This document shows, in pieces, positions 7,001-63,646 of a stretch of 64,000 nt of DNA. The notes beneath the pieces were generated by a model. The model was not told the origin of the DNA. It did not search any database and saw only the letters and a list, made by a program, of their open reading frames with translations. Origin of the DNA: a virus. The DNA lies in IMG/VR virus record IMGVR_UViG_3300032268_000973, positions 62,001-126,000 of that record; one strand, 5' to 3'. A program made the translations under genes and the position numbers. The stretch's first letter is position 1; the number at the start of each line of letters is the position of its first letter.

Positions 7001-8610
7001 GTGGTAGTTCGGGAACAAGTGGTACTTCAGGAACTAATGGAACTTCAGGGACTAATGGAACTTCAGGGACTAGTGGAACCTCAGGGACAAGTGGAACTTC
7101 AGGAACCTCAGGGACAAGTGGAACATCAGGAACTTCAGGGTCATCAGGATCAAGTGGAACATCAGGAACTAATGGAACTTCTGGTACTAATGGGACTTCT
7201 GGAACTGATGGAACTTCTGGAACTAGTGGAACTAGTGGAACATCAGGTACAAGTGGTACCTCAGGATCTAGTGGAACATCAGGTACAAGTGGAAGTTCAG
7301 GAACTAATGGGACTTCAGGAACTGATGGGACATCAGGAACTTCTGGAACAAGTGGTACATCGGGTTCTTCAGGGACATCTGGAACAAGTGGAACTTCAGG
7401 AACTTCTGGATCAAGTGGTACTAATGGAACATCAGGAACCTCTGGTACGAATGGAACTTCAGGTACTAGTGGAACGAGTGGGACTAATGGAACTTCGGGA
7501 ACATCTGGAACAAGCGGTAGCTCGGGAACAAGCGGAACATCTGGATCAAGTGGAACTAATGGAACATCTGGTTCTTCGGGAACAAATGGAACTTCAGGAA
7601 CAAATGGAACTTCAGGGACATCAGGTTCTTCAGGTACATCAGGTTCTAGTGGAACATCAGGATCAAGCGGATCTTCAGGTACGTCAGGATCAAGCGGATC
7701 TTCAGGTACGTCAGGATCTTCAGGAACTAATGGTACATCAGGAACTAATGGTACATCAGGAACTAATGGTACATCAGGAACTAATGGTACATCAGGATCT
7801 AGTGGAACGTCTGGAACAAATGGTACATCAGGAACTAATGGTACTTCAGGATCTAGTGGATCTTCAGGAACTAATGGAACGTCAGGAACAAACGGAACTT
7901 CAGGAACAAACGGAACGTCAGGAACTAATGGAACGTCAGGAACAAACGGAACTTCAGGATCAAGTGGATCTTCAGGTACATCGGGTACAAACGGTACTTC
8001 AGGTACAAACGGTACTTCAGGAATAAATGGAACATCTGGATCAAGTGGAACAAATGGTACATCAGGTTCAAGCGGTTCTTCAGGTTTGGGAACTATTAAC
8101 TCTAATGTTGACAATTATGTTCTAACCGCAACAGGTAGTGCAGGTACTATTCAAGGGGAAGCTAACTTTACTTTCAATGGTACAACTGCAAGAATAGGAA
8201 TTGGTTCCGCTGGAGCTTTAGGAGTTGGAACAGCCGCTGCGACTCCAACCACAGATGGATTGATAAGAGCGACAAATGATGTGATTGCATATTTTAGTTC
8301 TGACAAGAGATTAAAGACGAATGTAGTTCCTCTCTCAAATCCTTTAGAAAAAGTGAACAAGATTGGTGGATATGAATTTGATTGGATTGTTAAAGAAGGT
8401 ATACATGAAAACGAAGGACACGATATTGGAGTAATCGCTCAAGAAGTTGAATCAGTTTTGCCCGAAGTTGTTACAACTAGAAATAATGGATTCAAAGCGG
8501 TTAAATATGAAAAACTAGTTGCTCTTCTAATTGAATGTGTTAAAGAACAAAATAAAGAAATAGATTCACTTAAAAAACATATTGGTTACCCATCGTCCGA
8601 TACCGAATAA
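4036..8610 (+). CDS. Collagen-like tail fibre with peptidase S74 C-terminal chaperone
   Basis: 1524 residues. Layout: N-terminal anchor (1-50), short GTS stretch, globular island (about 86-200), long (Gly-Thr/Ser/Asn-Ser)n stalk (about 200-738), second globular island (about 745-910), second stalk (about 912-1350), then a C-terminal domain. The stalk triplets GTS, GSS, GTN and GTD keep Gly at every third position, as in collagen-like phage fibres. The end carries the S74 signature SDKRLK (Ser1422, Lys1427), followed by [16 protein letters not shown] and a coiled-coil tail. In this family the domain trimerises the fibre and cuts itself off just before the catalytic Ser, releasing about 103 residues here. 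Very likely a trimeric receptor-binding fibre. Many Thr/Ser make the stalk a possible glycosylation target. Confidence 0.9.
4633..6249 (+). repeat. GTS-triplet repeat block 1 with 117-base super-repeat
   Basis: Tandem 9-base units (GGN-ACN-TCN/AGT variants) encode Gly-Thr-Ser type triplets. A higher-order period is visible: the GGAAGTAG marker recurs at 5101 and 5218, and at 5695, 5812 and 5929, each time 117 bases apart (39 residues, 13 triplets). GGATCAAG markers at 6037 and 6163 continue the series at 108 and 126 bases. Codon choice varies between units, so the protein is more conserved than the DNA. Confidence 0.9.
6774..8084 (+). repeat. GTS-triplet repeat block 2
   Basis: Second collagen-like stalk of the same fibre, with the same 9-base logic but richer in GTN and GSS triplets, especially after 7430. 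At 7735-7800 the unit GGAACTAATGGTACATCA is repeated almost without change, suggesting recent slippage or unequal recombination. Confidence 0.9.
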
Positions 8611-18895: not shown

Positions 18896-18897
18896 GT

Positions 18898-23008: not shown

Positions 23009-23011
23009 AAT

Positions 23012-44811: not shown

Positions 44812-44891
44812 ATTAAAAATGATTATACTTCATCGGGGTAGATGATATTTTTAATATTTCATTTTGGAAAAATAAATTCAATTAAAGTTAT
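44812..44891 (+). other. Short non-coding gap inside the plus-strand block
   Basis: 80 bases, AT-rich, no ORF and no tRNA-like fold seen. It breaks an otherwise overlapping run of genes and may hold an internal promoter; no TATTTAT core is present. Confidence 0.4.
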
Positions 44892-47218: not shown

Positions 47219-47224
47219 TAAACT

Positions 47225-48049: not shown

Positions 48050-48063
48050 TCAGATTTTTTTTT
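48041..48063 (+). terminator. Terminator-like hairpin at the convergent junction
   Basis: CTGAT-ATA-ATCAG followed by A and nine T. The stem includes the last codons and stop of the SGNH gene, and the T-run lies in the end of the minus-strand GNAT gene. Suits termination of plus-strand transcription. Confidence 0.5.
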
Positions 48064-48544
48064 CTTCAAACCCTAATTTACTCCAAAAATTTATTGCTCG
48101 AGTATTGAAAAATTCAGTATAAAGTGAAATTTTAACAAAACCTGAATTAAATCTATCCAACATAGTATGTTCTATGAACCATTTGGATTCTCCAGTTTCA
48201 CGTTCTTTGGACACAAATGCATTATACAGATACCCTTCTGAATACCAAACGTGTCCTATAACCGAATTGAATTTAAGCAATACAAAAAGGGTATTATTAT
48301 TAAGAAATCTTTTCTGAGCGATATCTAAATCCCACATTTTATCCCAGTAAATTTCGGAATTGAACTTATCTATAGAATTTTTTATTTGTTCGGAGAAGGA
48401 TTCAAAATTTTGTTTTTCTATTTTTAAAATTTTTAAGTTTGAAGATTCTATTTTCGTAAAATCGAACTCAAATTCTTTTTCAAATTCATACCAAATTATT
48501 CCATCCATAGGTATATTATGTGACTGATCAATTCCTATTATCAA
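48050..48544 (-). CDS. GNAT-family acetyltransferase
   Basis: 164 residues from a TTG at 48544 (overlapping the upstream stop by 17 bases), or 152 from the ATG at 48508. The start is unsettled because an in-frame stop lies just upstream of the TTG. TLFVLLKFNSVIGHVWY, a splayed strand YLYNAFVSKE, EHTMLDRF and SLYTEFFNTRAINFWSKLGFEE follow the GNAT fold, with the typical N-x2-A-x2-F(W)-x3-GF ending. It likely N-acetylates an amino sugar or a protein. The acetyl-CoA loop (Q/RxxGxG/A) is poorly kept (KERETGES). Confidence 0.72.
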   Translation of the reverse strand: MIIGIDQSHNIPMDGIIWYEFEKEFEFDFTKIESSNLKILKIEKQNFESFSEQIKNSIDKFNSEIYWDKMWDLDIAQKRFLNNNTLFVLLKFNSVIGHVWYSEGYLYNAFVSKERETGESKWFIEHTMLDRFNSGFVKISLYTEFFNTRAINFWSKLGFEEKKI

Positions 48545-49202
48545 TATAAATCATAATTTCATTATAGTATGGAATAAAATTATCATTCCAAATTTGACTA
48601 GTAATATCAATTCCATCGAATGAGATAATTTTAAAATTAGGGAAAACTCGTAAATATAAATCCCTGAAAACAGTGAATTTGGATTTCATCCAAGGTTCAC
48701 CTAAATGCCATTCTCCAACTATTTTTCTCACATTATTTTTTATCCAAAACAAATTTTCAACAGTGAATATGTCGTATTCACCTGTTTCACAATCAGTTTT
48801 TAAAAAATCAATTTTTTGTATATTATAATCTTCAATAACTTTTTGGAAAGTTGTTGAATACAAAACATCATTGTTTGAATTTTCGAATACAAATTTAAAA
48901 TCAAATTTACCTATTTTATCAGATATCCCTTTGTTTATGTGTGTAACGTTTCCATGTCTTGTATTCATTGCAAGTGTTTTGAATTCTTCAAAACTTGGTT
49001 CGAAACAAAACACGTGTTTTGGGTTACGATCTAAAATCGAAAATGTAAATGGACCCAAACTAGCCCCGATATCAAAAACGATATCACCTTCCTCGACTTC
49101 GAAAAATCTTTCGTAGATTTTATCTTGAAAAATTTCTTTAGTCACAGTTTCTTGGAATCCATTATAACACTTAGGTTCCCATATAAAATTTTCTAAATTC
49201 AT
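48528..49202 (-). CDS. FkbM-family methyltransferase
   Basis: The ATG at 49202 gives an ATGA overlap with the upstream gene and is preferred to a TTG at 49304 that would run 100 bases into it. 224 residues. EVEEGDIVFDIGASLGPFTF is SAM motif I, VFCFEPSFEEF is motif II, and IDFLKTDCETGEYDIF is the FkbM signature, with Cys in place of the usual Val/Ile. Family members O-methylate sugars or polyketides. It probably methylates the glycan built by the giant protein upstream. Confidence 0.82.
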   Translation of the reverse strand: MNLENFIWEPKCYNGFQETVTKEIFQDKIYERFFEVEEGDIVFDIGASLGPFTFSILDRNPKHVFCFEPSFEEFKTLAMNTRHGNVTHINKGISDKIGKFDFKFVFENSNNDVLYSTTFQKVIEDYNIQKIDFLKTDCETGEYDIFTVENLFWIKNNVRKIVGEWHLGEPWMKSKFTVFRDLYLRVFPNFKIISFDGIDITSQIWNDNFIPYYNEIMIYIDNRN

Positions 49203-52200
49203 ACAAGTAAATTTTGAATTTGATTTATTACCATTTTTGATGTGATTGAAGTGTGACATTCGAATTGTCTTGAAGTCCCTTTGTGGAGGGGACACCAATT
49301 CCAATCACCTCTATCAAACTTGAAGTCGGCATTGTTCCAACAACTGTTACATACGTTAGGATTTGTAATTCTTGTGCAATTTGAAGTAAACTCATGGTCT
49401 TTTTCCGTAAAGTTACTAATCATGACTACGTGTTTTCCTAAAGCCCAAGATAACCAAGACAACCCGCTAGAAAGACCTATAAAGAAGTCACTATGATAAA
49501 TAACATTCATTGTATTTTCTATAGATGTGTCAGTAATTTTTTCACAATTATCGAATGCATTATCTTCCTTAGATACATTGATGACTTTATATCCAATGGA
49601 AGTTAGGTGATTTATCAATTCTTGCCATCCTTCTCTTGTCCAAAATTTACAACCAGCGGTAGAGTTGGTTGCAATTGTAATATATTTTGTATCATACGGG
49701 TTATCTTTTGGGACGAATGAAATTCTTGGCCTAATTTCTTCAAATGGTAACCCCAATATATTTGTCGCAGCTTTCTGTAATGGAATTGTGTTTGGTAAAG
49801 TTGGTTCTTTATTAAGGTCATAAAACCAACCGAGATTATATTGCCCAAATATACCGTGAACTATACTTCCAGGTTCCACAAATTCTAAATTTGGATAAAC
49901 ATCCTTGAATAACTTGTTCCAATAAGTACAAACTGTAACATCACATTGATGAACCTCTTTGAATTTTTCAACATATGGTAACCAAGCAATGTTGTCCCCC
50001 AAAGATTTACTATCGAAATTTATAAAAACACGAAGACCTGTATAGTCCAAAGTTTTATCGTATATCAAATCTCCATTCTCAAATATTTTTGTTCTCCAAC
50101 GGGTAAAATATTCCCTATTCAATTTTATCCAATGATTTGATTTAATGACATTGTGATAATGACAATAATTTTCTTCGTCGAACAACATGATGCTAAAATC
50201 GCTATCACTTTCTCCTTTGATTTCTAAGAAAGGTTGGTTAATAAAATATTGGGTTATTGAAATATTTGGATCAATCATATTATTTTTTTTGATTTCATTA
50301 GACATTATTTTTTTATAAAAAATATAATGAGTATCTGCAAATTTCTCTAAAGAACCTTTAGTCTCATTATATTTTCTTTCTGAACTTATTAGATCTCGTA
50401 ATATTTGAACATTTCTTTCCAAATCTTCTTCGAGATTTACAATGAATGGATCAAACATTTCCATGTATTGTGGTAAATTACGGCAAATAATTTTTAATCC
50501 ATAAGAAGCCGCTTCTCTCACAACTAATGGATTACATTCCCAAGTTGAATTGAAAATAAAAACATCTGAAGCTTTCATAAATGTTTCAATGTCTCCTCTT
50601 TCTCCCCAAATATGAACATTGGAAGGTAAATTCAACATTAATGGTTTCCAATATTCCTCAAAGTTTGGGGCTTGATTACCCACGAAATGGAATTCAACTC
50701 CCTCAGATTGAAAATATCTTGCGATATCGATAGCTTCCTTTTGATTTTTTCCTTGTGACCATAGCCCAACACTCAATACATGAATTTTTGTTGGGTCAAA
50801 GTCCAATTCCATTTGCGCGTTTGTCTGATCTTCTTTATTTCTGAATTTATTTTCAATCGGAAATTCCATTACCTCAGTTGGAGAAGACACATTTTTGAAT
50901 GTTTGTTGTTCATGGAATGGAGTACAAAAAGAGTATCCGTCGGGGTCATATTTCTTCATCAATTCTGGTTTAAACCAAATGTTGTGACAAGTTTCCACCA
51001 TTCTCCAAGTTCTATTATTATCATATAAAGCTTTCATTACAGTTCCTGAAACTTTATTGAATGAGTCAAAACCTTCTATCATTTCATCCACATGTACAAT
51101 ATCGATATTATTTCGTTTGATGATGTCGATTATCTTCAGTGAATCCGTGTCATTATTATTACCTAATGAATTCAGGGTCCAAAATCTATTTTCGGGAATA
51201 ATATTTTTGATAATATCTCGTTGAACGGTATATGTTGATGAATACAGGCAATATTCAACAACGTAGATTTCAATCTCAGGATAATTTTTTTGTAATGATT
51301 GAATTCTTTTCAATAGGTATGCTGGCATTCCTCCAGTCGATAAATGTGGGGCCAAATAAAGTATTCGGAGTTTTTTGGAAAACTTGTCTGAAAAAAACTC
51401 ATTATTTTTGTCGTTCCAAGGTGAGTTAATAAGCAAATTTTCAGAGATTGAAGTATCTCCAACTTCAAAATTTAATTCTGATAGTGTGGTATAATAAACA
51501 TCAGATGTAAGATTAGTTGCACTATAAAAATCTCTATTTACCGAAGCAAAATAATCCATAAATTTAAATTCCCCTCCGATTAAATTTTTACCTAAATTTA
51601 CATAATGGTTTGGCACACCATAAGCATCTGATACAATTAAACCGTGTAAACTTGAAGATAGAATCAATTCACATTCCAATAATTGATCTATAAATTCATA
51701 GATACCAGCGGTAATATTCACAATTTTTACCCCCAAATCTTCTAACTGGTTGATTGTCTTTAAACATAAATCCGATTGAAAATCTGAATAGTGGGGTATA
51801 ACACCATACTTATATCGTTTTTCAATATTCGGATTATACTTTTTCGGGAAAAGTAATGCGGGATCACCAAACACATTTGGAACATCCCATCCATTTTTCA
51901 ACAAACAATTTCTTGTTAGAGGGCCTCGAACTGCATAAACTTTTTGCGGTATATCACCTATGCTGTAAGGATCCAAACATCCTGGCCCCCAAACATAATC
52001 ATTGGGTTTGGAAAATAGGAGATTACTTCCGACAGATAAAATTTTACCATTTTTTTCAATCATTTGTCCCTCAGTGTCAAAATGAAAAACATCCGTATCT
52101 TCTAACGATTTCTGTGAAAAGTGAGTTAAAATATGTTTCGATACTATATCTCCCCAATTATTTTCAGGTTTTATATATTCGTATTTTCTTATATAGAAAT

Positions 52201-54943
52201 ATTTTTGGATATCGTGCATCATCATCTCCATTATTTCGGGATCTTTTTCTCCGTGAAAAAACAGGACTTGTTCTTTGATTGATGGAGCTCTTAACCAATC
52301 TCCCAAAAAGTTTAAAACATCTGGACCTTTATATTCCACTTGTGTAAACATCTTCTTAACAGTTTCCAAAGTTCCGTTGACGTATAGGTATGGAAGACCA
52401 ATGTCTATTTTGTATTTCCAAAGTAAAACATTCAAGATGGTTTCTTCATCATAAGGGGCATAATGGCTTATGTCTTTTTCAATTTTTGGGTGTTTACACA
52501 TCCAATACCATTCATCTAAGAAGTCCAAAGTATTTTGACCTGCCACAAAGTAACCCGTTTGTCTGTATAGTTTTCTGACCGATTGGTCGACACTAAAAAG
52601 TTCACAAGCATTGTGTTCTAATGTATCACATAATTCCCCTCCTAATGGTCCTCCTTTACCTCTTCCATTGTATGTAAGATATTCATATACACCTTCAACA
52701 AAATATGGGAAAGGTGATTTACGGTCGTAGTAAAAGAAGATTGTGTCAACTAATGGTGTTGCAACTGAATCACTATCCACATAACAAACGTTGTGGGCAT
52801 ATTTTTGAAGAGCGTCTTTAATTATGAGAGGTCTTTGAATTAAAATCTTATATATTGTTGGATTTTTTCTATCAATATAAAAATTACCTTCAACGGATAG
52901 GTATGAATTTTCATCTGGTTGGTCAATATCACAATCCCATCGTATGACTGTTACGTCATCCACATTTATTTTTTTGTTGGAGTTAATCAAATAAACTATG
53001 ATTGGAATTCCACTATATCTTCTGATTGATTTGACACACATTGTGACAACATCCAAATAATTTTCAGTACAATATAGAACAAACGCTTTGTCTGATTTGG
53101 ACTGATACTTATCTGTGAAGTAATACCCGTATTCGTCATTCGAATAGATCATATTCAACTTTGGATATCTTGATGACATTACCTTAGGGGTCAAATCATA
53201 TTGATGATGGGTTTCATACTTATTTCCAAAGCATTCACTTTGTTTCATCAAATAATGAACCCCAACCAAGCAAGTTTTAAATTTGAAGTGTATTCGATCA
53301 ATCAAATCAACTGATTGAACTTCTGTCAAGTGATCCAATACATCCCCTAAAATTAAAAAATCGTATTCACTGAAGTCAAAGTCACATATGTCTCCAATGA
53401 ATACGTTGTCATATTTTTCTCGTAAATTAAATTCACTAACATAGGGTTCCCAAATTTCTATGCAATCCATTTGATAACCAAATTGCCTTAATAAGTCAGA
53501 ATATGTTCCTTTTCCTGGCCCAACATCTAAAATTTTACTGTCTAAAGGAATATTTGCGATTATAAAATCCCTTACTTCTTCTTTATAAAATTTATTATTT
53601 TCGGAGCAATATTGAACAAGTTCTTTGAAATGTTTTGGAGATTCTTTTGAATTAGGATTCATAATTATGAATTCGTCTTTAGAAACGTTAGTTCCATACA
53701 AATAACCGTGATAAGTAATAGCACCGTTGTATATCAAATTTATTTCATTTTCAATTTGAAATTCTCTAACTGGAGAATCAACTCTGTAAAATCTATAATC
53801 ATCTATTAACGATAGGATTGCTTTGCTGTAAGCGACAGGACCCGTCAAATGAAGGACAGCTTTTTTTCCTTTTTTTCCATCATAATTTCTTATGTTTTCT
53901 TTGACAAGTTCAATAGTTTGTTTTAAAAAAGGGTGATTTGGAACACTTATAATGTGCCAGTTTTGAAATTCCCCCAACTGGTATTCTAATAATTCATTCC
54001 AATCTTTTCCAATCCAATGAGAGAGTAAGTATTCATCTGTTGGGAGAATTGTTTCACTCAAAGGTCTACTCGTTGAAGATTTGATATCTAGATAGACACC
54101 TCCGATTTTATAAATCAAAAGGTATCTGAAAAAATCAGCTCTACATGATCCATAATTGGGATTTATACTTAGATATAACGAAAGTGTTTCATCATCATAA
54201 TGTTCTTTGATAAAATTGTAACAATCTTCGTCATCATAAAATCTATATTCGAAATCAGGATTCATTTTTTTTAAATTTTCTACCGTATTCTCGATTTCTT
54301 TTGGTAGTTCTTTCGTCCTGAATGTTTGATGAATTATTTTAGGTATTTTTATTTTTGTGAGAACAACATCGGTTTCATTGTAACTTATTTGATAATTTTT
54401 GAATCTTTGAAGTAATTTATTTATTTCTTCGATGTTGGATACATTTGGGTGTTTTTCGAATTTGATTTTGTCAGCAAATAATATTGGTAATTTTTCACAC
54501 ATATCTAAATAGTCATTCAGAATTACGTGATCATATCCTTCAGTATCAATTTTTAAGTATCCAATAGACCCTACTTCTTCACTTTGAACTAGAGTCTTCC
54601 AAGAAACGGTGGGTACTTTATCAATTTTTACAATTGAATTGTATAGTTCCTCACCTAATTCTTTAATAGCAAAAGGATGAGGGTGATTTACGCTATTACT
54701 TCCTCTTATCCACCATTTTAAATCGTGTTCTTTAATTTTTTCATCAGGTATGTAATAAATGTCTATGTCACCGTCCACATCTGATACCGCTAGTTGAATT
54801 TTTTTGACGTTTTTTTTATTTGGTAATCTGTCTAAATAATATTTTATCGGTTCTATACTAAGACCAACCATATTATCGTCCGACGATTCAATTAAAGTGT
54901 CAAAATCGGATGTCCCGATTTCTATAAAATCGTAATGTTTCAT
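49199..54943 (-). CDS. 1914-residue seven-domain glycan-modifying protein
   Basis: Domains in order. About 1-195: FkbM-type methyltransferase (GYLKIDTEGYDHVI; motif I loop reduced). About 200-440: GT32-like (IPKIIHQTFRTKELP, SCRADFFRYLLIYKIGGVY, DIKS). About 450-615: class I methyltransferase (KILDVGPGKGTYSD). About 621-890: GT-A-like transferase (CYVDSDSVATP). About 920-1190: polysaccharide pyruvyl transferase-like (NNWGDIVSKHIL, AVRGPLTRNCL, FGDPALLFP, SSSLHGLIVSDAYG). About 1191-1560: GT4 (APHLSTGGMPAYL, VLSVGLWSQGKNQ, STWECNPLVVREAASYG). About 1565-1914: BAHT autotransporter-heptosyltransferase-like domain with CNSC, WCPLH and FEC iron-site cysteines. No frameshift is seen. It may act as a cytoplasmic assembly line that builds and transfers one glycan. 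ATGA overlaps on both sides. Confidence 0.82.
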   Translation of the reverse strand: MKHYDFIEIGTSDFDTLIESSDDNMVGLSIEPIKYYLDRLPNKKNVKKIQLAVSDVDGDIDIYYIPDEKIKEHDLKWWIRGSNSVNHPHPFAIKELGEELYNSIVKIDKVPTVSWKTLVQSEEVGSIGYLKIDTEGYDHVILNDYLDMCEKLPILFADKIKFEKHPNVSNIEEINKLLQRFKNYQISYNETDVVLTKIKIPKIIHQTFRTKELPKEIENTVENLKKMNPDFEYRFYDDEDCYNFIKEHYDDETLSLYLSINPNYGSCRADFFRYLLIYKIGGVYLDIKSSTSRPLSETILPTDEYLLSHWIGKDWNELLEYQLGEFQNWHIISVPNHPFLKQTIELVKENIRNYDGKKGKKAVLHLTGPVAYSKAILSLIDDYRFYRVDSPVREFQIENEINLIYNGAITYHGYLYGTNVSKDEFIIMNPNSKESPKHFKELVQYCSENNKFYKEEVRDFIIANIPLDSKILDVGPGKGTYSDLLRQFGYQMDCIEIWEPYVSEFNLREKYDNVFIGDICDFDFSEYDFLILGDVLDHLTEVQSVDLIDRIHFKFKTCLVGVHYLMKQSECFGNKYETHHQYDLTPKVMSSRYPKLNMIYSNDEYGYYFTDKYQSKSDKAFVLYCTENYLDVVTMCVKSIRRYSGIPIIVYLINSNKKINVDDVTVIRWDCDIDQPDENSYLSVEGNFYIDRKNPTIYKILIQRPLIIKDALQKYAHNVCYVDSDSVATPLVDTIFFYYDRKSPFPYFVEGVYEYLTYNGRGKGGPLGGELCDTLEHNACELFSVDQSVRKLYRQTGYFVAGQNTLDFLDEWYWMCKHPKIEKDISHYAPYDEETILNVLLWKYKIDIGLPYLYVNGTLETVKKMFTQVEYKGPDVLNFLGDWLRAPSIKEQVLFFHGEKDPEIMEMMMHDIQKYFYIRKYEYIKPENNWGDIVSKHILTHFSQKSLEDTDVFHFDTEGQMIEKNGKILSVGSNLLFSKPNDYVWGPGCLDPYSIGDIPQKVYAVRGPLTRNCLLKNGWDVPNVFGDPALLFPKKYNPNIEKRYKYGVIPHYSDFQSDLCLKTINQLEDLGVKIVNITAGIYEFIDQLLECELILSSSLHGLIVSDAYGVPNHYVNLGKNLIGGEFKFMDYFASVNRDFYSATNLTSDVYYTTLSELNFEVGDTSISENLLINSPWNDKNNEFFSDKFSKKLRILYLAPHLSTGGMPAYLLKRIQSLQKNYPEIEIYVVEYCLYSSTYTVQRDIIKNIIPENRFWTLNSLGNNNDTDSLKIIDIIKRNNIDIVHVDEMIEGFDSFNKVSGTVMKALYDNNRTWRMVETCHNIWFKPELMKKYDPDGYSFCTPFHEQQTFKNVSSPTEVMEFPIENKFRNKEDQTNAQMELDFDPTKIHVLSVGLWSQGKNQKEAIDIARYFQSEGVEFHFVGNQAPNFEEYWKPLMLNLPSNVHIWGERGDIETFMKASDVFIFNSTWECNPLVVREAASYGLKIICRNLPQYMEMFDPFIVNLEEDLERNVQILRDLISSERKYNETKGSLEKFADTHYIFYKKIMSNEIKKNNMIDPNISITQYFINQPFLEIKGESDSDFSIMLFDEENYCHYHNVIKSNHWIKLNREYFTRWRTKIFENGDLIYDKTLDYTGLRVFINFDSKSLGDNIAWLPYVEKFKEVHQCDVTVCTYWNKLFKDVYPNLEFVEPGSIVHGIFGQYNLGWFYDLNKEPTLPNTIPLQKAATNILGLPFEEIRPRISFVPKDNPYDTKYITIATNSTAGCKFWTREGWQELINHLTSIGYKVINVSKEDNAFDNCEKITDTSIENTMNVIYHSDFFIGLSSGLSWLSWALGKHVVMISNFTEKDHEFTSNCTRITNPNVCNSCWNNADFKFDRGDWNWCPLHKGTSRQFECHTSITSKMVINQIQNLLV

Positions 54944-55881
54944 TTTAAAATTTCTAAAATTTTGTTAAAAACTTGTAACACGTTTGGATGACAAACAAAT
55001 TCTGATTTGTTTTCCAAACATCCAATCAACGGGGGTACTCCCCGAATAGAATCCCATTCCCTTACACCATATCTCATATCAGATGCACAAGCAATTTTAC
55101 AAGCACCATCAACATAATGATATTTGTAATCTTGTGATCCATTTCTATAAGGTGCTCTTAATTTGTGATTTATTGAACCACCGAGTTGAATGATGTTTGC
55201 GTCCGTTGTTCCTGCTAAATGTAGAAACCCTGAGTCCATTGTAACAACAGCCAAACTTTTTTGCATCAACCACCAAGTTTGAGAAATTGAGGTGAGGTTC
55301 ATTAAATTCAATCCATCTCGAATTGGGAAATCAAAAATTGGTTTTTGAACTTTGTGAAATCCATCTTCTTGAGAATTTTTACCGACCGAAATAACCGAAA
55401 TACCTGAATCGTTCAACATAGTTGTAAGTAATACCCACTTTTCTGCTGACCAAGTTCTTGATGGCCAAGATTGAACGGGATGTATTACCACAAACTTTTC
55501 AGGTAAATTAGGAATTGGTTTCCATTCATCAGGAAAATAATCCATTTGACATTCCTCGGGTAAAAGTTGAAATCCAAGGCCTGCGGCATGAAATTGCCTG
55601 ATATCCATCACGTTATGCCTCAAACCAAGACCATACCTATTTTCCAAGTTGGGTGCAAAACTTACTAGTAATTCATAGTTGTCTTGTAATTCCTCCCTAT
55701 TAGAATTATCTGTATTGTAAATTCGATTTACATACTTGTTGTTTTTGAATAAATGAGGGAAATCAGTTAGGACTGAGATTCTTTTTCCGTATACGTAAAA
55801 AAGTTTTCGTAAAGATGGAGTAGAACAAATTGTGTCTCCGAGTCCTTTACATAAGTGTAAATCTAATAATGGTTCTTTCAT
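54940..55881 (-). CDS. GT9 heptosyltransferase-like protein
   Basis: 313 residues. LCKGLGDTICSTPSLRKL is the GT9 N-terminal loop, VVIHPVQSWPSRTWSAEKW is the GT9 Trp-rich motif, and VVTMDSGFLHLAGTTDANII is the donor-binding Asp/His region near the C-terminal end. GT9 enzymes move ADP-heptose or other sugars. It resembles the terminal domain of the giant protein that follows it (ATGA overlap), consistent with shared donor chemistry. No heptose biosynthesis gene is visible here, so the donor may come from the host. Confidence 0.83.
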   Translation of the reverse strand: MKEPLLDLHLCKGLGDTICSTPSLRKLFYVYGKRISVLTDFPHLFKNNKYVNRIYNTDNSNREELQDNYELLVSFAPNLENRYGLGLRHNVMDIRQFHAAGLGFQLLPEECQMDYFPDEWKPIPNLPEKFVVIHPVQSWPSRTWSAEKWVLLTTMLNDSGISVISVGKNSQEDGFHKVQKPIFDFPIRDGLNLMNLTSISQTWWLMQKSLAVVTMDSGFLHLAGTTDANIIQLGGSINHKLRAPYRNGSQDYKYHYVDGACKIACASDMRYGVREWDSIRGVPPLIGCLENKSEFVCHPNVLQVFNKILEILK

Positions 55882-56213: not shown

Positions 56214-59200
56214 ATGGCGTGTACGTGTTTCTATTATGATGTTATTATCGACCAAATAGATTTGGATGACGCAACGGGTAATACCGATCCAGGTAAGTTT
56301 GATGGTACCGTATATGTTGACTATATTGATTGTAGTGGTAACTCACAACAAGATTTATACACACTTTCAGGTACATTCTTAAATGACCTTTGTATAGACA
56401 CAACTGGTTCTCCAGCACCTAACATTTATTATTATAAAAATAATACCCAAATTGTTGGACCATCTTCGTCAGTAAGTCAAACTTTAATTGAATGTTGTGG
56501 TGGAGGTGTAACCCCAACTCCAAATCCAACTCCGTCACAAACACCTACAAATCAAACTCCAACTAATACCGAAACACCAACTCCAACACCAACTCCAACT
56601 GAAACATCAACCCCCACCGAAACACCAACACAAACGGTAACTCCATCAACTACACCTCCACCAGATGGTTGTGTTTGTTATCAATATACAAATGATGGAG
56701 ATCCTGGTGGAATAAATTCAATAACTTATTTAGATTGTAATCACGTTTCACAATCTATAAACAATGTTCCATTTCCTGGTGGGACTGGATATTTCTGTGC
56801 AATTTTAGGGAGTGTTACTGCTTCATCAGGACTTACAATTATCCAAGTTGATGAAAGCTTTTGTGGTGGATGTATTGAAGGACTAACTCCGACTCCTACA
56901 CCAACAAATACTTCAACCCCTACTGAAACACCAACACAGACCTCAACTCAAACTGAAACTCCAACCGCTACGGTTGGATTGACTCCTACTGCCACTGAAA
57001 CTTCAACTCCGACTCCAACAGAGACACCTACAAATACTCCGAGCGAAACACCTACCAGTACACCGACTGAGACACCAACTCAGACGGCGACTAATACTGC
57101 AACGACAACTCCAACACAAACACCTACTCAAACTCCAACACAAACACCAACTAACACATCTACACCTACAGAAACACCTACTCAAACTCCAACTCAAACA
57201 CCAAGTCAAACTTCAACCCAAACACCGACTAATACGTCTACACCGACAGGGACACCAACTCAAACTTCAACCCAAACCCCAACTCAAACATCGACTCAAA
57301 CTCCAACAAATACTTCAACCCCAACTCAAACATCGACTCAAACTCCAACAAATACTTCAACGTCGACTCAAACTCCAACACCAACACAAACTCCAGGTTA
57401 TACTGTCCAATTCCAAGATTGTACAAACAGTTTAAATATATTCAGATTTTTTGACATCCCGATGACACTAACTCCAGGGTTGGTGTATTATATAAGTGGA
57501 GGAGTTGAATTTGAAGGATGTGCAACGGTTGTTGCTACAACTGGTGCAGGCGCTTTATATGATGGAGGTGGATACAGTTTTACTCAGACCGCGTCTGGAT
57601 GCGCTGACGCAGTTTGTCCTACAGAATCTAATGTTGCTGCTTTATTATATAAATGTTCTAATGGATCGGTATTTTATGCTAACGTAAAAGAAGATACTGC
57701 ATTCTTTGGAGCAACTTATCTATATAACGGAGAATGTTACAGTTTTGTTGAATTCTCAGGTCCAGGTGGACCTGATTTGAATGATCCTGATTTTGATGAT
57801 TGTTCATTTTGTGTTCCGACTCCAACACCTACTAACACACCACAACCTACTCCAACTCAAACACCAACCGTATCACCTTCACCTTCCGCATGTGCATTTA
57901 CTGATTTTTGTTTCTATACAACTTTACCTTCTTTTTCAGGGTATAATGGAAATTATGAAGTAGCAGGAACTTACAACTCAAGGTTATATTATTCTGGAGA
58001 TGGTTTGACCTCTGCTGTTATTTACCACACTGGTAATTATTGGTGTTTGAGTACATCATTGGGAGGTTCTTGTTTGTTGAGAGGGTCTTACCCTTGTAAA
58101 TCTCAGTGTCCTGATATTTCAGCCAATGATTTCAGTGGAGGGGTTTGTCCGACACCAACTCCAACCGCAATAGATTGTTCGACGTTCGACTTCGACGCAT
58201 ATTTCGATTGTGCTTACGTTCCTCCTGTAACTCCAACTCCAAGTATAGCTTGTGATGACGTAAACTTCACAATATCATCGTTTGGAGTAACTCCAACCCC
58301 TTCACCAACTGGTAACTTTTGTAGTGGAGTTGGTATTAGTTTCAGTTTGAGCGGATATAACCCTTCAACTCCAACGGTGACTTTAACTCCATCAGTGACT
58401 CTCACTAAAACCGTTTCAATCGAAGGAGTAGTGACCTATGGAATTATGGATCAAACTTTCAGTTGTGTTTCAGTAAAAGTCCTCACGGATTGTGGATCAG
58501 GAGAAGAATTCTATACTGCAGATTCTCTGTCTTTCAATGGAACCCCTGTGGTTATTGGAATGACAATGTTTGTTCAAGTTAATGGTGTAGATCGATGTGT
58601 AGTTTACACTCGAGACGATAAGAATTTATCTTCAAATAGTAATTTGGGGGCTATCACTCAGATATATGCTTCTTGTGAATATTGTAGCACTATCCCAACT
58701 CCAACACCAACTACGACATCAACACCAACCAATACTCCAACATCAACTGCAGGAATTACTCCAAGTGTAACCGCAACACAAACTGCGACACCATCTCAGA
58801 CTGCAACCGTTGGAACAACACCTCCACCAACTCCTACACAAACAAGTTCGCCAACGGCTACAAATACTCCAACACCATCTATTACAATGTCGCCATCAGC
58901 AACACCAAACTTCTTGTATGTGTATCAATCTTGTAACAGAATTGGTGGGGGTGCAGGAAGCTTTACTCAAGTAATTCAAACACAACCAGTTGGTTTTACT
59001 ATTGCGGTCAATGAAGTGTTCAAAGATACTAACGGAAATTGTTGGTATTATGTTGGGCAATTTAATACATCTTACATTGCTCCTCCAAAAGTTACTCCAA
59101 TCAACTTTGGAGGGAATTATTTTACAGGTGTTCCGAGTCAGACCTACACTGATTGTGTCACTTGTGCAACAGCTAACATCGGAACATTTGGAAATAGCGG

Positions 59201-59417
59201 AGTTAGTAATGTGAGTGTTGCCGACGCTTGTTCCGACGCAATAATTAACCCTAAGACATTATATTCTAACTGTACAGAGATAAATGTGGGATGTATATTA
59301 TATGACAACTCTAATTTGACAACAGTGGTTAGTGAAATATATGTATTCCACCAAGGTGCAAACTGGGATCTTAATGGATCAGGTGTTGTAACTGGATTAT
59401 CATCAACACAATGTTAA
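56214..59417 (+). CDS. Modular Thr-Pro-linked fibre protein
   Basis: 1067 residues. The N-terminal ACTCFYYDVIID domain (about 1-98) resembles the start of the gene at 63710. Small Cys-bearing beta modules follow, separated by (Thr-Pro-x)n linkers: CVCYQYTNDGDPGG near 152, then modules around 395-540, 565-665, 690-750, 760-825 and 900-1067. Several modules share a pattern: an early Cys, a Gly-x-x-F/Y-x-V strand, and a later C(W/Y)xxV near aromatic residues (for example NGNCWYYVG, NGECYSFVE). No signal peptide or membrane segment. Likely a long flexible virion fibre whose linkers hold rigid modules apart. Thr-rich linkers are typical O-glycosylation sites. Confidence 0.78.
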   Translation: MACTCFYYDVIIDQIDLDDATGNTDPGKFDGTVYVDYIDCSGNSQQDLYTLSGTFLNDLCIDTTGSPAPNIYYYKNNTQIVGPSSSVSQTLIECCGGGVTPTPNPTPSQTPTNQTPTNTETPTPTPTPTETSTPTETPTQTVTPSTTPPPDGCVCYQYTNDGDPGGINSITYLDCNHVSQSINNVPFPGGTGYFCAILGSVTASSGLTIIQVDESFCGGCIEGLTPTPTPTNTSTPTETPTQTSTQTETPTATVGLTPTATETSTPTPTETPTNTPSETPTSTPTETPTQTATNTATTTPTQTPTQTPTQTPTNTSTPTETPTQTPTQTPSQTSTQTPTNTSTPTGTPTQTSTQTPTQTSTQTPTNTSTPTQTSTQTPTNTSTSTQTPTPTQTPGYTVQFQDCTNSLNIFRFFDIPMTLTPGLVYYISGGVEFEGCATVVATTGAGALYDGGGYSFTQTASGCADAVCPTESNVAALLYKCSNGSVFYANVKEDTAFFGATYLYNGECYSFVEFSGPGGPDLNDPDFDDCSFCVPTPTPTNTPQPTPTQTPTVSPSPSACAFTDFCFYTTLPSFSGYNGNYEVAGTYNSRLYYSGDGLTSAVIYHTGNYWCLSTSLGGSCLLRGSYPCKSQCPDISANDFSGGVCPTPTPTAIDCSTFDFDAYFDCAYVPPVTPTPSIACDDVNFTISSFGVTPTPSPTGNFCSGVGISFSLSGYNPSTPTVTLTPSVTLTKTVSIEGVVTYGIMDQTFSCVSVKVLTDCGSGEEFYTADSLSFNGTPVVIGMTMFVQVNGVDRCVVYTRDDKNLSSNSNLGAITQIYASCEYCSTIPTPTPTTTSTPTNTPTSTAGITPSVTATQTATPSQTATVGTTPPPTPTQTSSPTATNTPTPSITMSPSATPNFLYVYQSCNRIGGGAGSFTQVIQTQPVGFTIAVNEVFKDTNGNCWYYVGQFNTSYIAPPKVTPINFGGNYFTGVPSQTYTDCVTCATANIGTFGNSGVSNVSVADACSDAIINPKTLYSNCTEINVGCILYDNSNLTTVVSEIYVFHQGANWDLNGSGVVTGLSSTQC
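56500..57393 (+). repeat. Thr-Pro linker repeats (low complexity)
   Basis: Runs of TPT, TET, TQT and TNTS codons occur at about 56509-56664 and 56887-57393. Codons are mainly ACN and CCN with alternating synonymous choice; CAAACTCCAAC and ACCAACTCAAAC recur. Shorter blocks of the same type lie at about 57822-57888, 58695-58908, 60789-61037 and 63211-63372. Confidence 0.85.
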
Positions 59418-59429
59418 ACAAAATTTGAA

Positions 59430-62400
59430 ATGGAAGTTCAATGTACGATAAATAATATAACAGGACAGACCCCCTACGACATATATGTTTGTCAAACGGA
59501 TGGTAGTGGTTGTTTTTATATTTCAACTATAAATAACTCATCTTTCCCTTATGTGTTTAACATACCAGCACCATACAACACTTCACCAAATTATATGATC
59601 AAGGCAATTGACGCCAATAACTGTATTATATCAGGAAGTAGCGCTGTTCAATTCTTTCCAACTCCTACACCAACCCCTTGGGACTTCTGTTACGAACTTG
59701 ATGGAGGATTCAACAATCAAGCGGAGGCTGCGGTTGAAGATTCGAGTGGAAGAATTATTTTTGGTGGTATTTTTACAACTTATAGTGGGCAATCATTCAA
59801 TCGAATTGTTCGTGTCAATAGTAATGGCAGTATTGATAACACGTTCACTATTGGAACTGGATTCGATAATGACGTTTATGCAGTTGAATTACAACCTGAT
59901 GGAAAAATTCTTGTTGGAGGTATATTCTCATCTTATAGTGGAGTTTCTGCGAATAAAATCATACGACTTAATTCTGACGGAACTGTGGATAATACATTTT
60001 CTAGTGGTTCTGGTTTTAATTTTTCAGTATGGTCTTTTGCAGTACAACCTGACGGGAAAATAGTTGTGGGTGGAGGATTTACTACTTACAGTGGGCAATC
60101 GGCTAATTCGATTATCAGATTAAACAGTGATGGCTCGATTGATAACTCATTTAGTATTGGTTCAGGATTGAATAACATTGCATACGATATTATTGAACAA
60201 ACGGACGGTAAAAAGTTAGTTCTTGGTTCATTTACGTCTTACAGTGGACAAACACATAATAGAATTCTTAGATTGAATAACGACGGGACCGTTGACAATA
60301 CCCTGAACGTTGGGACTGGATTCAATAGTGAGGTGTATTCATGTGTATTGGAAGATGATGGAAAAATGGTAATTGTAGGACTTTTCGACCAATTTAGTGG
60401 ACAAACTTACCGTCAAATTGTAAAATTGAATGCTGATGGATCGATTGATAATACATTTAATGTTGGAACTGGATTCCAAAGGTCTGTTGGATTATGTTTT
60501 GCTTTGAGTGTCTTCAAGTATGACACAAAATATTTTATTACAGGTGATTTTGATTTTTATAATGGAAATAGTGCAAATGGACTGATACAGCTCAATAGTG
60601 ATGGAAGTAAGGATACCTCATTCAATTACGGAACAGGATTATTATTTAGTGGTACTTCTTTCAATACAGGATTACTTCTCTCAAGCGGAGTTCACATAGT
60701 CTATGGCCAATTTACTCAATATAATGGATATGAAGTGAATGATGTGGCTTATTTGAATCCATTTGGTACTTTATTGAATTGTCCTCAATTGACACCAACA
60801 CCTACTGCAACGCCAACATTGACCCCAACAAATACACCAACAACTACAAGAACCCCAACAAATACACCAACAACCACTTCAACTCCAACAAATACACCAA
60901 CAACCACTTCAACTCCAACAACTACACCAACAACTACAACAACTCCAACTAATACTTCAACAATTAATATTACACCTACTGCGACGCCAACAAATACAAC
61001 AACAACTACAACAACTCCAACGCCATCCCCTACGTATGGTGGACTCACACCATTTGTTTCAGTTTGGAATACTTCGAATACTAGTGTAGGGTCGAGTGCT
61101 TCAAATCAGATTGCATTACCGCTTCAATCAAGCGGAGCTTATAATTTTGTTGTAAATTGGGGTGATAGTAACACCAACACAATCACGTCTTGGAACCAAC
61201 CTGAAGTGACTCATACTTACGCAAGTCCTGGCCAATATACAATTACAATTAGTGGAACTTGCGAAGACTTCGGATTTGGAGGAGGAGGTGATAGGAATAA
61301 ACTTCTGACTATTATATCTTTCGGGAATGTGGTTTTAGGTGATATTACAACACAATTCTCCAACTGTTTTAATTTAACTTTGACTGGAGTCACTGATACT
61401 CCTGATTTATCATCTATGACTACATTAGCGCAAATGTTCTATGGATGTAGTGGGTTGACTACAATTAACAATATAAATTTGTGGGATGTAAGTAACATAA
61501 CTAACATGCTGAGCATGTTTCAAGGGGCAACTAATTTTAACGATGATATAAGTTCTTGGGATGTTTCAAACGTGACTAATACGTCTTACATGTTCTCAGC
61601 GGCACAAGATTTCAATCAGGATATTGGTAGTTGGGATGTTTCTAATGTTACAAATATGGGTGGTATGTTCCAATTTGCAAGTAGTTTCAATCAAGATTTG
61701 AACACTTGGAACGTATCAAGTGCTACAACTTTTTCCTATATGTTCCAAGGAGCAACAGCATTTGATAGCAACATTAGTTCTTGGAATGTTTCGAACGCCA
61801 CAACTATGGTTCAAATGTTCGATCAAGCAACTTCATTCAACCAAAGTATAAGTGGATGGAATGTATCTAACGTCACAACCATGATTGGTATGTTTGGTTC
61901 TGCATCATCATTCAACCAAAATATTGATTCTTGGAATGTTTCTAACGTTACGAACATGGCGTCTATGTTCACTAATGCGGATAGTTTCAATCAGAGTTTG
62001 AATAGTTGGAATGTTTCTAATGTTACGAACATGGCGGGAATGTTTAGTTTGGCTAATGTATTCAATGGAGACATAACATCTTGGAATGTTTCAGGGGTGA
62101 CCAATATGGGCCAAATGTTTCTATCTGCAGTTAGTTTTAACCGAAATATTGGTAGTTGGAACGTTTCAAATGTAACAAATATGGGTCAAATGTTTGCTTC
62201 AGCGTCAATCTTCAATCAGGATATTAGTTCTTGGGATGTTTCGAGTGTAACAGATATGGGATCGATGTTTAATAGCGCTTTAGCATTTAACCAAAATATT
62301 GATACATGGGATGTTTCGAGTGTAACAGATATGTTCTTCATGTTTTCTAATGCAAATAGTTTTAATCAAAATCTTAATAGTTGGAACGTTTCAAATGTAA

Positions 62401-62987
62401 CTACAATGGAGTTAATGTTCTATGGTGCGGACAATTTTAATGGAAATGTCAGTAATTGGAATGTATCAGGAGTAACAAGCATGGCAGGAATGTTTTGGGA
62501 CGCGACTACATTTAATCAAAATATTGGTGGTTGGGATGTTTCAAATGTCACCGATATGAGTAGAATGTTCCGAAGTGCGGCGGCATTCAATCAAAACATC
62601 AGTGGATGGGATGTATCTAGTGTCACTAACATGCTAGAAATGTTCTATTTAGCCGCAAACTTCAATCAAAACATTGGTGGATGGGATGTTTCGAGTGTAA
62701 CAGATATGGAGGGAATGTTCAATAGTGCAAGTATTTTCGATCAAAATATCGGAAGCTGGGATATTTCTAATGTGACTAATTTTGTAGATTTCATGAACAA
62801 TAAAACATTTACGAATTATAGTTCAACTAACCTTAATGCTATTTATAATGGATGGAGTTTGTTGACCCTACAACCTAATATAGTGATTGATTTCAATACA
62901 ATAAAATACACTGCGGCTGGACAATCAGGAAGAAACATTTTGACAGGAGCCCCAAACAATTGGTCAATTACTGACGGAGGTATATAA
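59430..62987 (+). CDS. Fibre protein with delta-60 propeller-like and BspA/DUF285 repeats
   Basis: 1185 residues. About 1-80: shared fibre N-terminal domain (TPYDIYVCQTD, then IKAIDANNC). About 90-450: delta-60 repeats (DUF5122 type), with PDGKILVGGxFxxYSG and (I/V)xRLNSDGxxDNTF in about six copies. About 454-536: Thr-Pro linker. About 540-655: PKD-like VVNWGDSNTNTITSW and VTHTYASPGQYTITISG. About 684-1115: 17 copies of a 25-residue WDVSNVTNMxxMFxxAxxFNQNIGS unit (DUF285/BspA type). The end (AGQSGRNILTGAPNNWSI) is the usual cap of such proteins. These domains are common in Bacteroidota surface proteins. Probably a receptor-binding fibre. Confidence 0.88.
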   Translation: MEVQCTINNITGQTPYDIYVCQTDGSGCFYISTINNSSFPYVFNIPAPYNTSPNYMIKAIDANNCIISGSSAVQFFPTPTPTPWDFCYELDGGFNNQAEAAVEDSSGRIIFGGIFTTYSGQSFNRIVRVNSNGSIDNTFTIGTGFDNDVYAVELQPDGKILVGGIFSSYSGVSANKIIRLNSDGTVDNTFSSGSGFNFSVWSFAVQPDGKIVVGGGFTTYSGQSANSIIRLNSDGSIDNSFSIGSGLNNIAYDIIEQTDGKKLVLGSFTSYSGQTHNRILRLNNDGTVDNTLNVGTGFNSEVYSCVLEDDGKMVIVGLFDQFSGQTYRQIVKLNADGSIDNTFNVGTGFQRSVGLCFALSVFKYDTKYFITGDFDFYNGNSANGLIQLNSDGSKDTSFNYGTGLLFSGTSFNTGLLLSSGVHIVYGQFTQYNGYEVNDVAYLNPFGTLLNCPQLTPTPTATPTLTPTNTPTTTRTPTNTPTTTSTPTNTPTTTSTPTTTPTTTTTPTNTSTINITPTATPTNTTTTTTTPTPSPTYGGLTPFVSVWNTSNTSVGSSASNQIALPLQSSGAYNFVVNWGDSNTNTITSWNQPEVTHTYASPGQYTITISGTCEDFGFGGGGDRNKLLTIISFGNVVLGDITTQFSNCFNLTLTGVTDTPDLSSMTTLAQMFYGCSGLTTINNINLWDVSNITNMLSMFQGATNFNDDISSWDVSNVTNTSYMFSAAQDFNQDIGSWDVSNVTNMGGMFQFASSFNQDLNTWNVSSATTFSYMFQGATAFDSNISSWNVSNATTMVQMFDQATSFNQSISGWNVSNVTTMIGMFGSASSFNQNIDSWNVSNVTNMASMFTNADSFNQSLNSWNVSNVTNMAGMFSLANVFNGDITSWNVSGVTNMGQMFLSAVSFNRNIGSWNVSNVTNMGQMFASASIFNQDISSWDVSSVTDMGSMFNSALAFNQNIDTWDVSSVTDMFFMFSNANSFNQNLNSWNVSNVTTMELMFYGADNFNGNVSNWNVSGVTSMAGMFWDATTFNQNIGGWDVSNVTDMSRMFRSAAAFNQNISGWDVSSVTNMLEMFYLAANFNQNIGGWDVSSVTDMEGMFNSASIFDQNIGSWDISNVTNFVDFMNNKTFTNYSSTNLNAIYNGWSLLTLQPNIVIDFNTIKYTAAGQSGRNILTGAPNNWSITDGGI
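61480..62790 (+). repeat. BspA/DUF285 75-base repeats
   Basis: Seventeen full units of 75 bases (25 residues), plus a final partial unit, each starting at a TGG codon followed by GATGTTTC or AATGTTTC. Several units are nearly identical in DNA (TGGAATGTTTCTAACGTTACGAACATGG), pointing to recent duplication. Confidence 0.88.
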
Positions 62988-62998
62988 ATAAAAAAATT

Positions 62999-63646
62999 AT
63001 GAGTCGACAAGTAACAATAACTTCAGTAACCGCAAACACCCCAGTTGATGTATATTACTGTAATGCATTTAGTGCGAGTTGTGTGTCTGTTGGAACGGTT
63101 TCAACTTTTCCTTTCACCTTTACGGTTCCCTCACCTAATGATGAGACAAACATCGTTATCAAAATTGAGGACAACAATGGTTGTATTGATGGAGAAGTAA
63201 TTTATATAACACCGACACCAACATCTACAGTTACTCCGACAGTAACTAAGACTCCCACAAACACCCCTACAATAACTAAGACTCCTACAAATACTCCAAC
63301 ACTTTCACCTACAAATACTCTAAGTCCAACTACAACCCCAACGTTCACTCCTACACCATCTACTACACCAAACTTTGGATTACATTTGGTTGGTCAAAAC
63401 ACATTTCCTACTTCTGCAAATACTTGTAGTGATACTTTTACATCGGTAAATTATTATACGTATATAAGTCAGGCAAATACTGTTCCTGTAGTCGGCGCAG
63501 TGATTTATCAGACAGCTTTCGGAGGATCTTTATATAATCCATACAATGGTAATAATAGATTCACCAAGTTTACTTTCGGAGGTAATAATTACGCGGTTCA
63601 GGTGGATACTAGTGGGATGATAACAAGTTTTGTTGCGTGTCCATAA
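62999..63646 (+). CDS. Short Thr-Pro-linked fibre protein
   Basis: 215 residues. The N-terminal ~73 residues (VTITSVTANTPVDVYYC, then IKIEDNNGC) are the shared fibre domain. A Thr-Pro linker (about 73-125) leads to a 90-residue C-terminal domain starting FGLHLVGQNTFPT, with one early Cys and a terminal Cys-Pro. It is the minimal version of its large neighbours: anchor, linker, one head. The C-terminal head is not recognised. It follows the previous stop by 11 bases. Confidence 0.75.
   Translation: MSRQVTITSVTANTPVDVYYCNAFSASCVSVGTVSTFPFTFTVPSPNDETNIVIKIEDNNGCIDGEVIYITPTPTSTVTPTVTKTPTNTPTITKTPTNTPTLSPTNTLSPTTTPTFTPTPSTTPNFGLHLVGQNTFPTSANTCSDTFTSVNYYTYISQANTVPVVGAVIYQTAFGGSLYNPYNGNNRFTKFTFGGNNYAVQVDTSGMITSFVACP

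Follow-up and report, generated by a model that had tools for sequence, protein, structure and literature searches.

A seven-domain transferase fusion in a large tailed phage, a probable O-glycosylation enzyme for Ser/Thr-rich phage proteins

Our analysis of 64,000 nucleotides (the window) of a large tailed phage, IMGVR_UViG_3300032268_000973, has shown that a single open reading frame with an ATG start joins seven domain segments along one 1,914-residue chain: FkbM, GT32-like, class I methyltransferase, GT-A, pyruvyl-transferase, GT4 and BAHT/TibC-like (Table 1). Based on these domains and the neighboring genes, we think it probable that the phage uses this protein as a glycan synthase in the cytoplasm, for O-glycosylation of its own Ser/Thr-rich virion or surface proteins, most likely the adjacent TPTPT-repeat proteins. 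Phage protein glycosylation is known in few cases, and fused enzymes beside Ser/Thr-rich proteins point to a widespread phage-encoded mucin-like coating.

Table 1. Features of the fusion gene and its surroundings; positions are those of the window unless stated otherwise
Feature	Position	Strand	Basis
Possible GNAT acetyltransferase gene at the end of the operon	48050..48544	-	PF00583 weak, 15.6 bits, below cut-off
FkbM methyltransferase gene that overlaps the fusion-gene stop	48528..49202	-	TIGR01444 51.5 bits
Seven-domain transferase fusion gene, 1,914 residues	49199..54943	-	ORF, profiles, relatives
BAHT/TibC-like protein O-glycosyltransferase domain, residues 1561-1914	49202..50263	-	TIGR04414, TibC alignment
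GT4 domain, residues 1193-1560	50264..51367	-	PF00534 46.6 bits; E1469-x7-E1477
Polysaccharide pyruvyl-transferase domain, residues 916-1192	51368..52198	-	PF04230 48.7 bits, cut-off 25.3
GT-A fold glycosyltransferase domain (predicted), residues 616-915	52199..53098	-	AlphaFold model, VIA match; invariant D723-S-D725
Class I SAM methyltransferase domain, residues 446-615	53099..53608	-	PF08241 23.6 bits, cut-off 21.2
GT32-like domain, residues 199-445, DIK replacing DXD	53609..54349	-	PF04488 39.8 bits, cut-off 23
FkbM-type methyltransferase domain, residues 1-198	54350..54943	-	PF05050 33.1 bits, cut-off 22.7
GT9 heptosyltransferase-like gene, overlapping the start of the fusion gene (ATGA)	54940..55881	-	PF01075 49.6 bits
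Thr/Pro-rich (TPTPTQT) protein 1, 1,067 aa, candidate acceptor	56214..59417	+	ORF
Thr/Pro-rich protein 2, 1,185 aa, DUF5122 and DUF285 repeats, candidate acceptor	59430..62987	+	
Thr/Pro-rich protein 3, candidate acceptor	62999..63646	+	
Fourth TPTPT protein, after protein 3	record position 125710		
GTSGTSG-repeat tail-fibre protein, second candidate acceptor type	4036..8610	+	PHROG tail fibre families

The original prediction had described seven domains in one uninterrupted frame, and a profile search of each segment bore this out: six segments matched Pfam families above the gathering cut-off, and the fourth (GT-A), which had no Pfam match, was assigned by predicted structure. There are no internal stops in the frame. 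A contig that is 93% identical (L002) carries a five-domain version with matching flanks at both sides, and each of the five domains common to the two proteins has a dN/dS of 0.05-0.10, indicating purifying selection. The frame is therefore neither a chance ORF nor an assembly join. An assembly error joining separate genes, which would have undone the prediction, was ruled out: L002 has the same genes on either side at high identity, and every join except that between the GT32-like and methyltransferase domains is found elsewhere. Only two Shine-Dalgarno-like in-frame sites occur inside the gene, neither of them at a domain border.

The C-terminal domain matches the NCBIfam BAHT profile TIGR04414 over residues 1581-1911 (274.4 bits, cut-off 200), the Pfam family Glyco_transf_9 over residues 1748-1858 and, in the PDB, TibC (E 6e-51). 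Using the residue assignments published for TibC (PMC4358343), we found that the catalytic Asp110 is kept as D1650, the donor residues Thr226, Lys230 and Trp305 as T1762, K1766 and W1830, and the four cysteines of the iron finger as C1865, C1868, C1884 and C1896. Identity as an LPS heptosyltransferase was ruled out (TIGR02193, 22 vs 185 bits). The domain differs from TibC and AAH, however, in that it is fused to six others, falls with the viral sequences in a separate clade (by a quick tree method) and has Thr (T1811) in place of Arg286, which contacts the adenine of ADP-heptose in TibC. At this position, 95 of 106 viral sequences have Thr and 84 of 90 from bacterial genomes have Arg, suggesting that the donor of the phage clade may differ from ADP-heptose. 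We therefore name the domain BAHT-like and not an ADP-heptosyltransferase; "BAHT-like" in the original prediction was correct, but the arginine for ADP recognition is missing. A search of the phage record for ADP-heptose supply genes gave no SIS_2 (GmhA) and no CTP_transf_like match. The TibC/AAH family is characterized by dodecamers and by heptosylation of autotransporter passengers, and no autotransporter substrate was seen for the phage domain; known BAHTs glycosylate beta-helix autotransporters, so the TPT and GTSG repeats proposed here are unlike their acceptors. Bacterial BAHT proteins almost always stand alone (78 of 90 frames in bacterial genomes are ≤520 aa), in agreement, for this domain, with the expectation that most bacteria encode such enzymes separately. 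The Arg-to-Thr swap predicts a new donor specificity in a direct Ser/Thr O-glycosyltransferase that works without a lipid carrier, which could be of use in glycoengineering.

The fourth segment is predicted to adopt a GT-A fold. Its AlphaFold model (residues 613-930, pLDDT 93) gave best VIA matches with Z 16 for GT6 enzymes and WbbM and 15.6 for LgtC, so that GT6 and LgtC are level by this measure and the candidate families are GT6 and GT8; both aspartates of the DxD motif, D723 and D725, are invariant. WbbM (6u4b), titled bifunctional, is matched through its residues 277-564, and the likeness is one of fold only, at 15% identity. No relatives of this domain were found in bacterial genomes by a search with short peptide patterns, which are of limited sensitivity. 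In the segments that follow, the Pfam matches are PS_pyruv_trans at residues 1003-1115 and Glycos_transf_1 (GT4) at residues 1377-1499; the pyruvyl-transferase also exists as a stand-alone protein in L005, L006 and L295-L297.

At the N-terminus, the FkbM domain keeps 20 of 21 conserved columns; its Pfam match (residues 26-180) exceeds the cut-off, whereas TIGR01444 scores 24.6 bits against a cut-off of 37.7. The Gly_transf_sug (GT32) match spans residues 214-301, and the second Asp of its DXD motif is absent: the motif is DIK in this protein and all fused relatives and DTD in the outgroup L011. We therefore call the domain GT32-like. Comparison of this segment with annotated phages gave no match. 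The methyltransferase (Methyltransf_11 at residues 472-544) has the glycine-rich SAM motif I, ILDVGPGKGTYS, but carries E537D, A561G, P563H and G569S at columns that are invariant in 41 relatives. It has 14-16 changes specific to the large protein vs 1-2 specific to L002, while the remaining domains are even; it is under relaxed constraint, with lineage-specific change. The methyltransferase and the DIK-bearing domain weaken the idea of a seven-step assembly line, and activity of all seven domains is not supported. The methyltransferase changes, together with a GT32-methyltransferase join that is confined to this record and removed the old start codon, would suit a recent, partly decaying fusion of neighboring genes, whose significant parts would be limited to the GT-A-GT4-BAHT core and perhaps FkbM-GT32. 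We regard this as unlikely, although it is the strongest competing explanation, because the 1,914-codon frame is kept, dN/dS in the methyltransferase is still ~0.1 and all other domains are conserved.

The large protein is the longest member of a family of modular fusions in uncultured phages, which forms 57 clusters when BAHT identity is set at 80%. GT-A–GT4–BAHT is the common base, to which further modules have been added or from which they have disappeared. Since the seven domains and their fusion are real, and many independent virus contigs carry versions with five, four or three domains, a shared glycan is the probable target of the domains. The family shows transferase domains being gained and lost in frame, a natural record of multi-step enzyme assembly. 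The same domain order was sought elsewhere and recurs for all joins but one, the GT32-methyltransferase join being found in this record alone. The proposed correspondence between a domain's place in the chain and its turn in the reaction sequence was not supported, as some relatives are permuted (GT4-GTA-x-BAHT-FkbM; GT4-FkbM-GT32-GTA) and others have their modules in split genes; moreover, by homology to TibC, the domain for the first sugar sits last. We infer the following donor use and order of steps. The BAHT-like domain would start the glycan by moving a sugar from a nucleotide-sugar donor onto a Ser or Thr residue of the acceptor, and chain extension would fall to GT4 and GT-A, perhaps with the GT32-like domain. 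The sugars could then be capped with a pyruvate ketal by the pyruvyl-transferase and with a methyl group by the FkbM domain. Fusion would keep the enzymes together on a single acceptor in a fixed ratio.

The best clue to the acceptor is provided by the neighboring Ser/Thr-rich proteins. The original prediction did not mention them. A Ser/Thr-rich ORF lies within 5 kb in 39 of the 42 BAHT clusters that have at least 4 kb of flank on both sides, and on the opposite strand in 35 of these 39. The corresponding figures are 3/52 for bacterial BAHT loci, 0/8 for FkbM-only virus loci and 24% for positions in this phage's own record. Since the family almost always adjoins such mucin-like phage proteins, the virus particle itself is probably sugar-coated. 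Fused proteins bearing PYR or GT32 lie beside TPT-type proteins (5/5 clusters) and others beside GTS-type proteins (37/41). The match of module to substrate is not absolute, because the split relatives L008 and L063/L064 pair GT32 with GTSG proteins. In the isolated Microcystis phage Mel-JY01, a fused GT4-to-BAHT protein adjoins the GTSG protein at positions 635-3052 of L029, with an annotated structural protein also next to it. The TPT proteins carry no virion assignment of their own, and part of the adjacency could be due to a general tendency of glycan genes to lie close to tail genes.

Capsule pathways commonly contain pyruvyl-transferases, and the window also encodes sugar-nucleotide epimerases and a dTDP-sugar isomerase. 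Both would fit an enzyme that alters host capsule, O-antigen or exopolysaccharide and blocks superinfection, as proposed for jumbo cyanophage glycosyltransferase clusters (PMC7824862). We consider this improbable. BAHT homologues put sugar directly on protein, the Ser/Thr-rich neighborhood is very strong, and no match to the phosphoglycosyl transferase, WecA, Wzx, Wzy or STT3 families was found anywhere in the phage record, which leaves no evident lipid-linked capsule or OTase route; the initiating enzyme, flippase, polymerase and ligase could nevertheless be supplied by the host. A secreted or host-surface acceptor, such as an adhesin-like, non-virion TPT protein, whose glycosylation would alter the infected cell and not the particle, is less likely still: one TPT protein has DUF5122 and DUF285 repeats of a type seen in surface proteins, and known BAHTs modify adhesins (PMC4358343), but in most relatives the enzyme family adjoins GTSG-repeat proteins that match tail-fibre families.

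Glycosylation of the phage's own Ser/Thr-rich proteins thus remains the favored reading, and chlorovirus A064R offers a precedent for viral multi-transferase proteins (PMC9614988, PMC7826918). In PBCV-1, A064R (638 aa; two glycosyltransferases and a methyltransferase) and A111/114R (three glycosyltransferases) are single viral chains that build part of the virion glycan, and the phage protein likewise holds at least two glycosyltransferase domains and a methyltransferase in one viral chain. Compared by description, the PBCV-1 proteins differ in having three domains, acting on an N-glycan and belonging to a eukaryotic algal virus; BAHT-like, pyruvyl-transferase and FkbM modules are not described for them (PMC9614988, PMC7826918). 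Mycobacteriophages (Che8 and relatives) also link phage glycosyltransferases to glycosylated virion proteins, but with separate genes and capsid or tail-tube acceptors, and the parts of these reports at hand do not mention a BAHT-like domain (PMC12619734, PMC11256854). The cyanophage and jumbo-phage capsular polysaccharide clusters share glycosyltransferases, sugar-nucleotide enzymes, 2OG oxygenases and methyltransferases in one region; their proposed target is the host surface, however, and multi-transferase BAHT fusions are not described in the text available (PMC7824862). A literature search for phage BAHT or multi-transferase fusions of this kind found none, which is weak evidence. More tentatively, large phages could practice a combinatorial single-chain O-glycosylation, in which a GT-A-GT4-BAHT core with altered nucleotide-sugar specificity assembles glycans directly on mucin-like virion acceptors. 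Modules for capping or extension would be exchanged in step with the type of acceptor repeat, so that every phage would have a sugar coat of its own.

Downstream of the fused gene, most relatives carry an FkbM gene (here its start was set at the ATG used in L002), and the GT9 heptosyltransferase-like gene has the same location in L002.

Our analysis has shown that the 1,914 residues of the fusion are encoded without a stop, as read from the ORF. The order of domains in the original prediction was borne out by profile searches, which matched FkbM, GT32-like, methyltransferase, pyruvyl-transferase (PYR), GT4 and GT9/BAHT segments in that sequence. The predicted GT-A segment had no match in a Pfam search, yet its AlphaFold model, built with 59 relatives (pLDDT 93), fits GT-A enzymes (GT6, WbbM and LgtC; VIA Z 15-16), and its D-x-D is invariant among aligned relatives. 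The phage is a contractile-tailed virus, with genes for a tail sheath and a baseplate wedge as well as for DNA polymerase and ribonucleotide reductase.

An assembly error joining separate genes was weighed against a relative, L002, that is 93% identical to the fusion across residues 441-1914. Its flanks are those of the window (a GT9 gene before and an FkbM gene after the fusion gene), and Thr/Pro-rich proteins on the other strand are common to both. The L002 version begins at the methyltransferase domain; in the window, the FkbM-GT32 module separates the GT9 gene from the methyltransferase, and the L002 start codon is absent at that place. A chimera would require two breakpoints plus a retained reading frame. 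Among the relatives compared, only the GT32-methyltransferase join is unique to the window; FkbM-GT32 is joined directly to GT-A-GT4-BAHT in L277, L279, L281-L283, L285 and L288, methyltransferase to GT-A in dozens of relatives, and GT-A-PYR-GT4 occurs in L002, L037, L046 and L113. The domains shared with L002 show dN/dS of 0.05-0.10.

A virus collection was scanned with the GT-A and BAHT domains, and the best 80 of 195 and of at least 562 relatives, respectively, were analyzed, a choice of best-scoring matches that skews the set toward close relatives. At 80% identity their BAHT domains formed 57 clusters: MT-GTA-GT4-BAHT in 13 (MT, methyltransferase; GTA, GT-A), GTA-GT4-BAHT in 12, BAHT without other recognized modules in 12, GT4-BAHT in 10, FkbM-GT32-GTA-GT4-BAHT in four, FkbM-GTA-GT4-BAHT in two, and other architectures as single cases. 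Partial versions of the chain thus recur among these relatives, but the seven-domain form was seen in the window only. Permuted relatives (GT4-GTA-x-BAHT-FkbM, ~1,600 aa; GT4-FkbM-GT32-GTA) and two-gene splits (e.g., L008, with FkbM-GT32-GTA-GT4 and then a separate BAHT) contradict the proposal that domains act in chain order, so where a domain sits in the chain does not tell when it reacts. BAHT usually stands alone in prokaryote genomes, with frames >520 aa in 12 of 90. Four genome-bin contigs (L204, L251, L254 and L261) carry BAHT fused to ~500 residues of unassigned sequence.

Active-site motifs of the GT4, GT-A and BAHT-like domains are mostly retained, but changes were found in the GT32-like and internal methyltransferase domains and at one BAHT position. 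GT4 keeps E-x7-E. The GT32-like domain has DIK at the expected DXD site in all fused relatives, whereas a free-standing GT32 (L011) has DTD; judged by sequence, activity of the GT32-like domain is doubtful. The internal methyltransferase retains SAM motif I, and four residues invariant in 41 relatives are changed, all inside 33 positions. With L003, L004 or L046 as outgroup, this domain has 14-16 unique changes in the window versus 1-2 in L002 (Tajima's relative-rate test, chi-square ~10-11, computed by hand from counts), and counts in other domains are roughly even. Since its dN/dS against L002 is still 0.1, constraint is relaxed rather than absent, plausibly owing to the FkbM methyltransferase on the same chain.

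Compared with TibC residues as given in PMC4358343, the BAHT-like domain retains equivalents of Asp110, Thr226, Lys230 and Trp305 and all four iron-finger cysteines. TibC needs Arg286 for activity, and this residue bonds the adenine of ADP-heptose (PMC4358343); its counterpart here is Thr1811. Of 106 viral sequences, 95 have Thr at this position, whereas 84 of 90 genome sequences have Arg. A quick tree separated 37 genome BAHTs from the viral BAHTs, with which eight genome-bin contigs grouped; a single clade holds 40 viral rows of the Thr type. Based on this substitution in the viral clade, and on a profile search of the virus record that matched no GmhA-type or nucleotidyltransferase family, the donor is likely other than ADP-heptose.

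The fusion lies in an operon ordered GT9, fusion, FkbM and a possible GNAT. A Ser/Thr-rich ORF lies no more than 5 kb away in 39 of the 42 BAHT clusters with at least 4 kb on both sides (opposite strand in 35). Among the controls, such an ORF was near 3 of 52 bacterial BAHT loci, none of 8 FkbM-only virus loci and 24% of positions in the fusion's own record. These candidate acceptors are repeat proteins of two types, GTSG, which includes tail fibres, and TPT. A TPT-type neighbor accompanies 5 of 5 clusters of PYR- or GT32-bearing fused proteins versus 4 of 41 others; the split relatives L008 and L063/L064 are exceptions. Profile searches of the record, which may be incomplete, matched none of the families for lipid-carrier, flippase, polymerase, ligase or OTase functions. 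This speaks against a complete phage-encoded capsule pathway, parts of which the host may supply, and favors direct cytoplasmic glycosylation of protein.

Chlorovirus A064R provides a proven viral example of a GT-GT-methyltransferase chain, completing a capsid glycan, and A111/114R is a likely triple GT (PMC9614988, PMC7826918). The phage family resembles A064R in principle, with several transferase domains on one viral chain; in contrast, it belongs to bacteriophages and adds a BAHT-like domain with a predicted role in attaching the first sugar. Mycobacteriophage virions are reported to be glycosylated, with phage-encoded glycosyltransferases (PMC12619734, PMC11256854), and jumbo cyanophage glycosyltransferase clusters have been interpreted as host-surface modifiers (PMC7824862). 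Our search of a limited literature collection found no description of a phage BAHT-containing multi-transferase fusion family. Sulfotransferase-linked genes in L008 (see table) suggest that some glycans may be sulfated.

Features of the window (62001-126000 of the 183,357-base record) and of relatives
Contig	Position	Feature
Window	4036-8610	GTSG-type tail fibre
Window	9468-38460	Large sugar/secondary-metabolism island: GT7-like enzymes joined to laminin-G-like domains, several GTs, four epimerase/dehydratases, dTDP-sugar 3,5-isomerase, PhyH oxygenase, TPP enzyme apparently split in two genes
Window	12919-15731	Two adjacent proteins (461-476 aa), GT7-type galactosyltransferase-like plus laminin-G-like lectin domain
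Window	17480-24184	Five consecutive radical-SAM genes, inside the island
Window	40890-43625	911-aa protein with several Hint/intein splicing domains
L002	18522-20357	Frame similar to the Hint/intein protein
Window	43786-48049	Small cassette, differing from L002: SET-domain protein, 2OG-Fe(II) oxygenase, radical SAM, two weakly GDSL-like proteins
Window	49199-54943 (-)	Fusion
Window	56214 onward	Four Thr/Pro-rich proteins, divergent from the fusion operon
L008	2-1954	FkbM-sulfotransferase fusion, adenylylsulfate-kinase-like frame (by eye), cytidylyltransferase-like protein; adjoins GTSG tail fibre and split GT/BAHT genes
L029 (isolated Microcystis phage Mel-JY01)	635-8430	1,227-aa fusion running from GT4 to BAHT, its sole annotation being FkbM methyltransferase; adjoins GTSG repeat protein and structural protein
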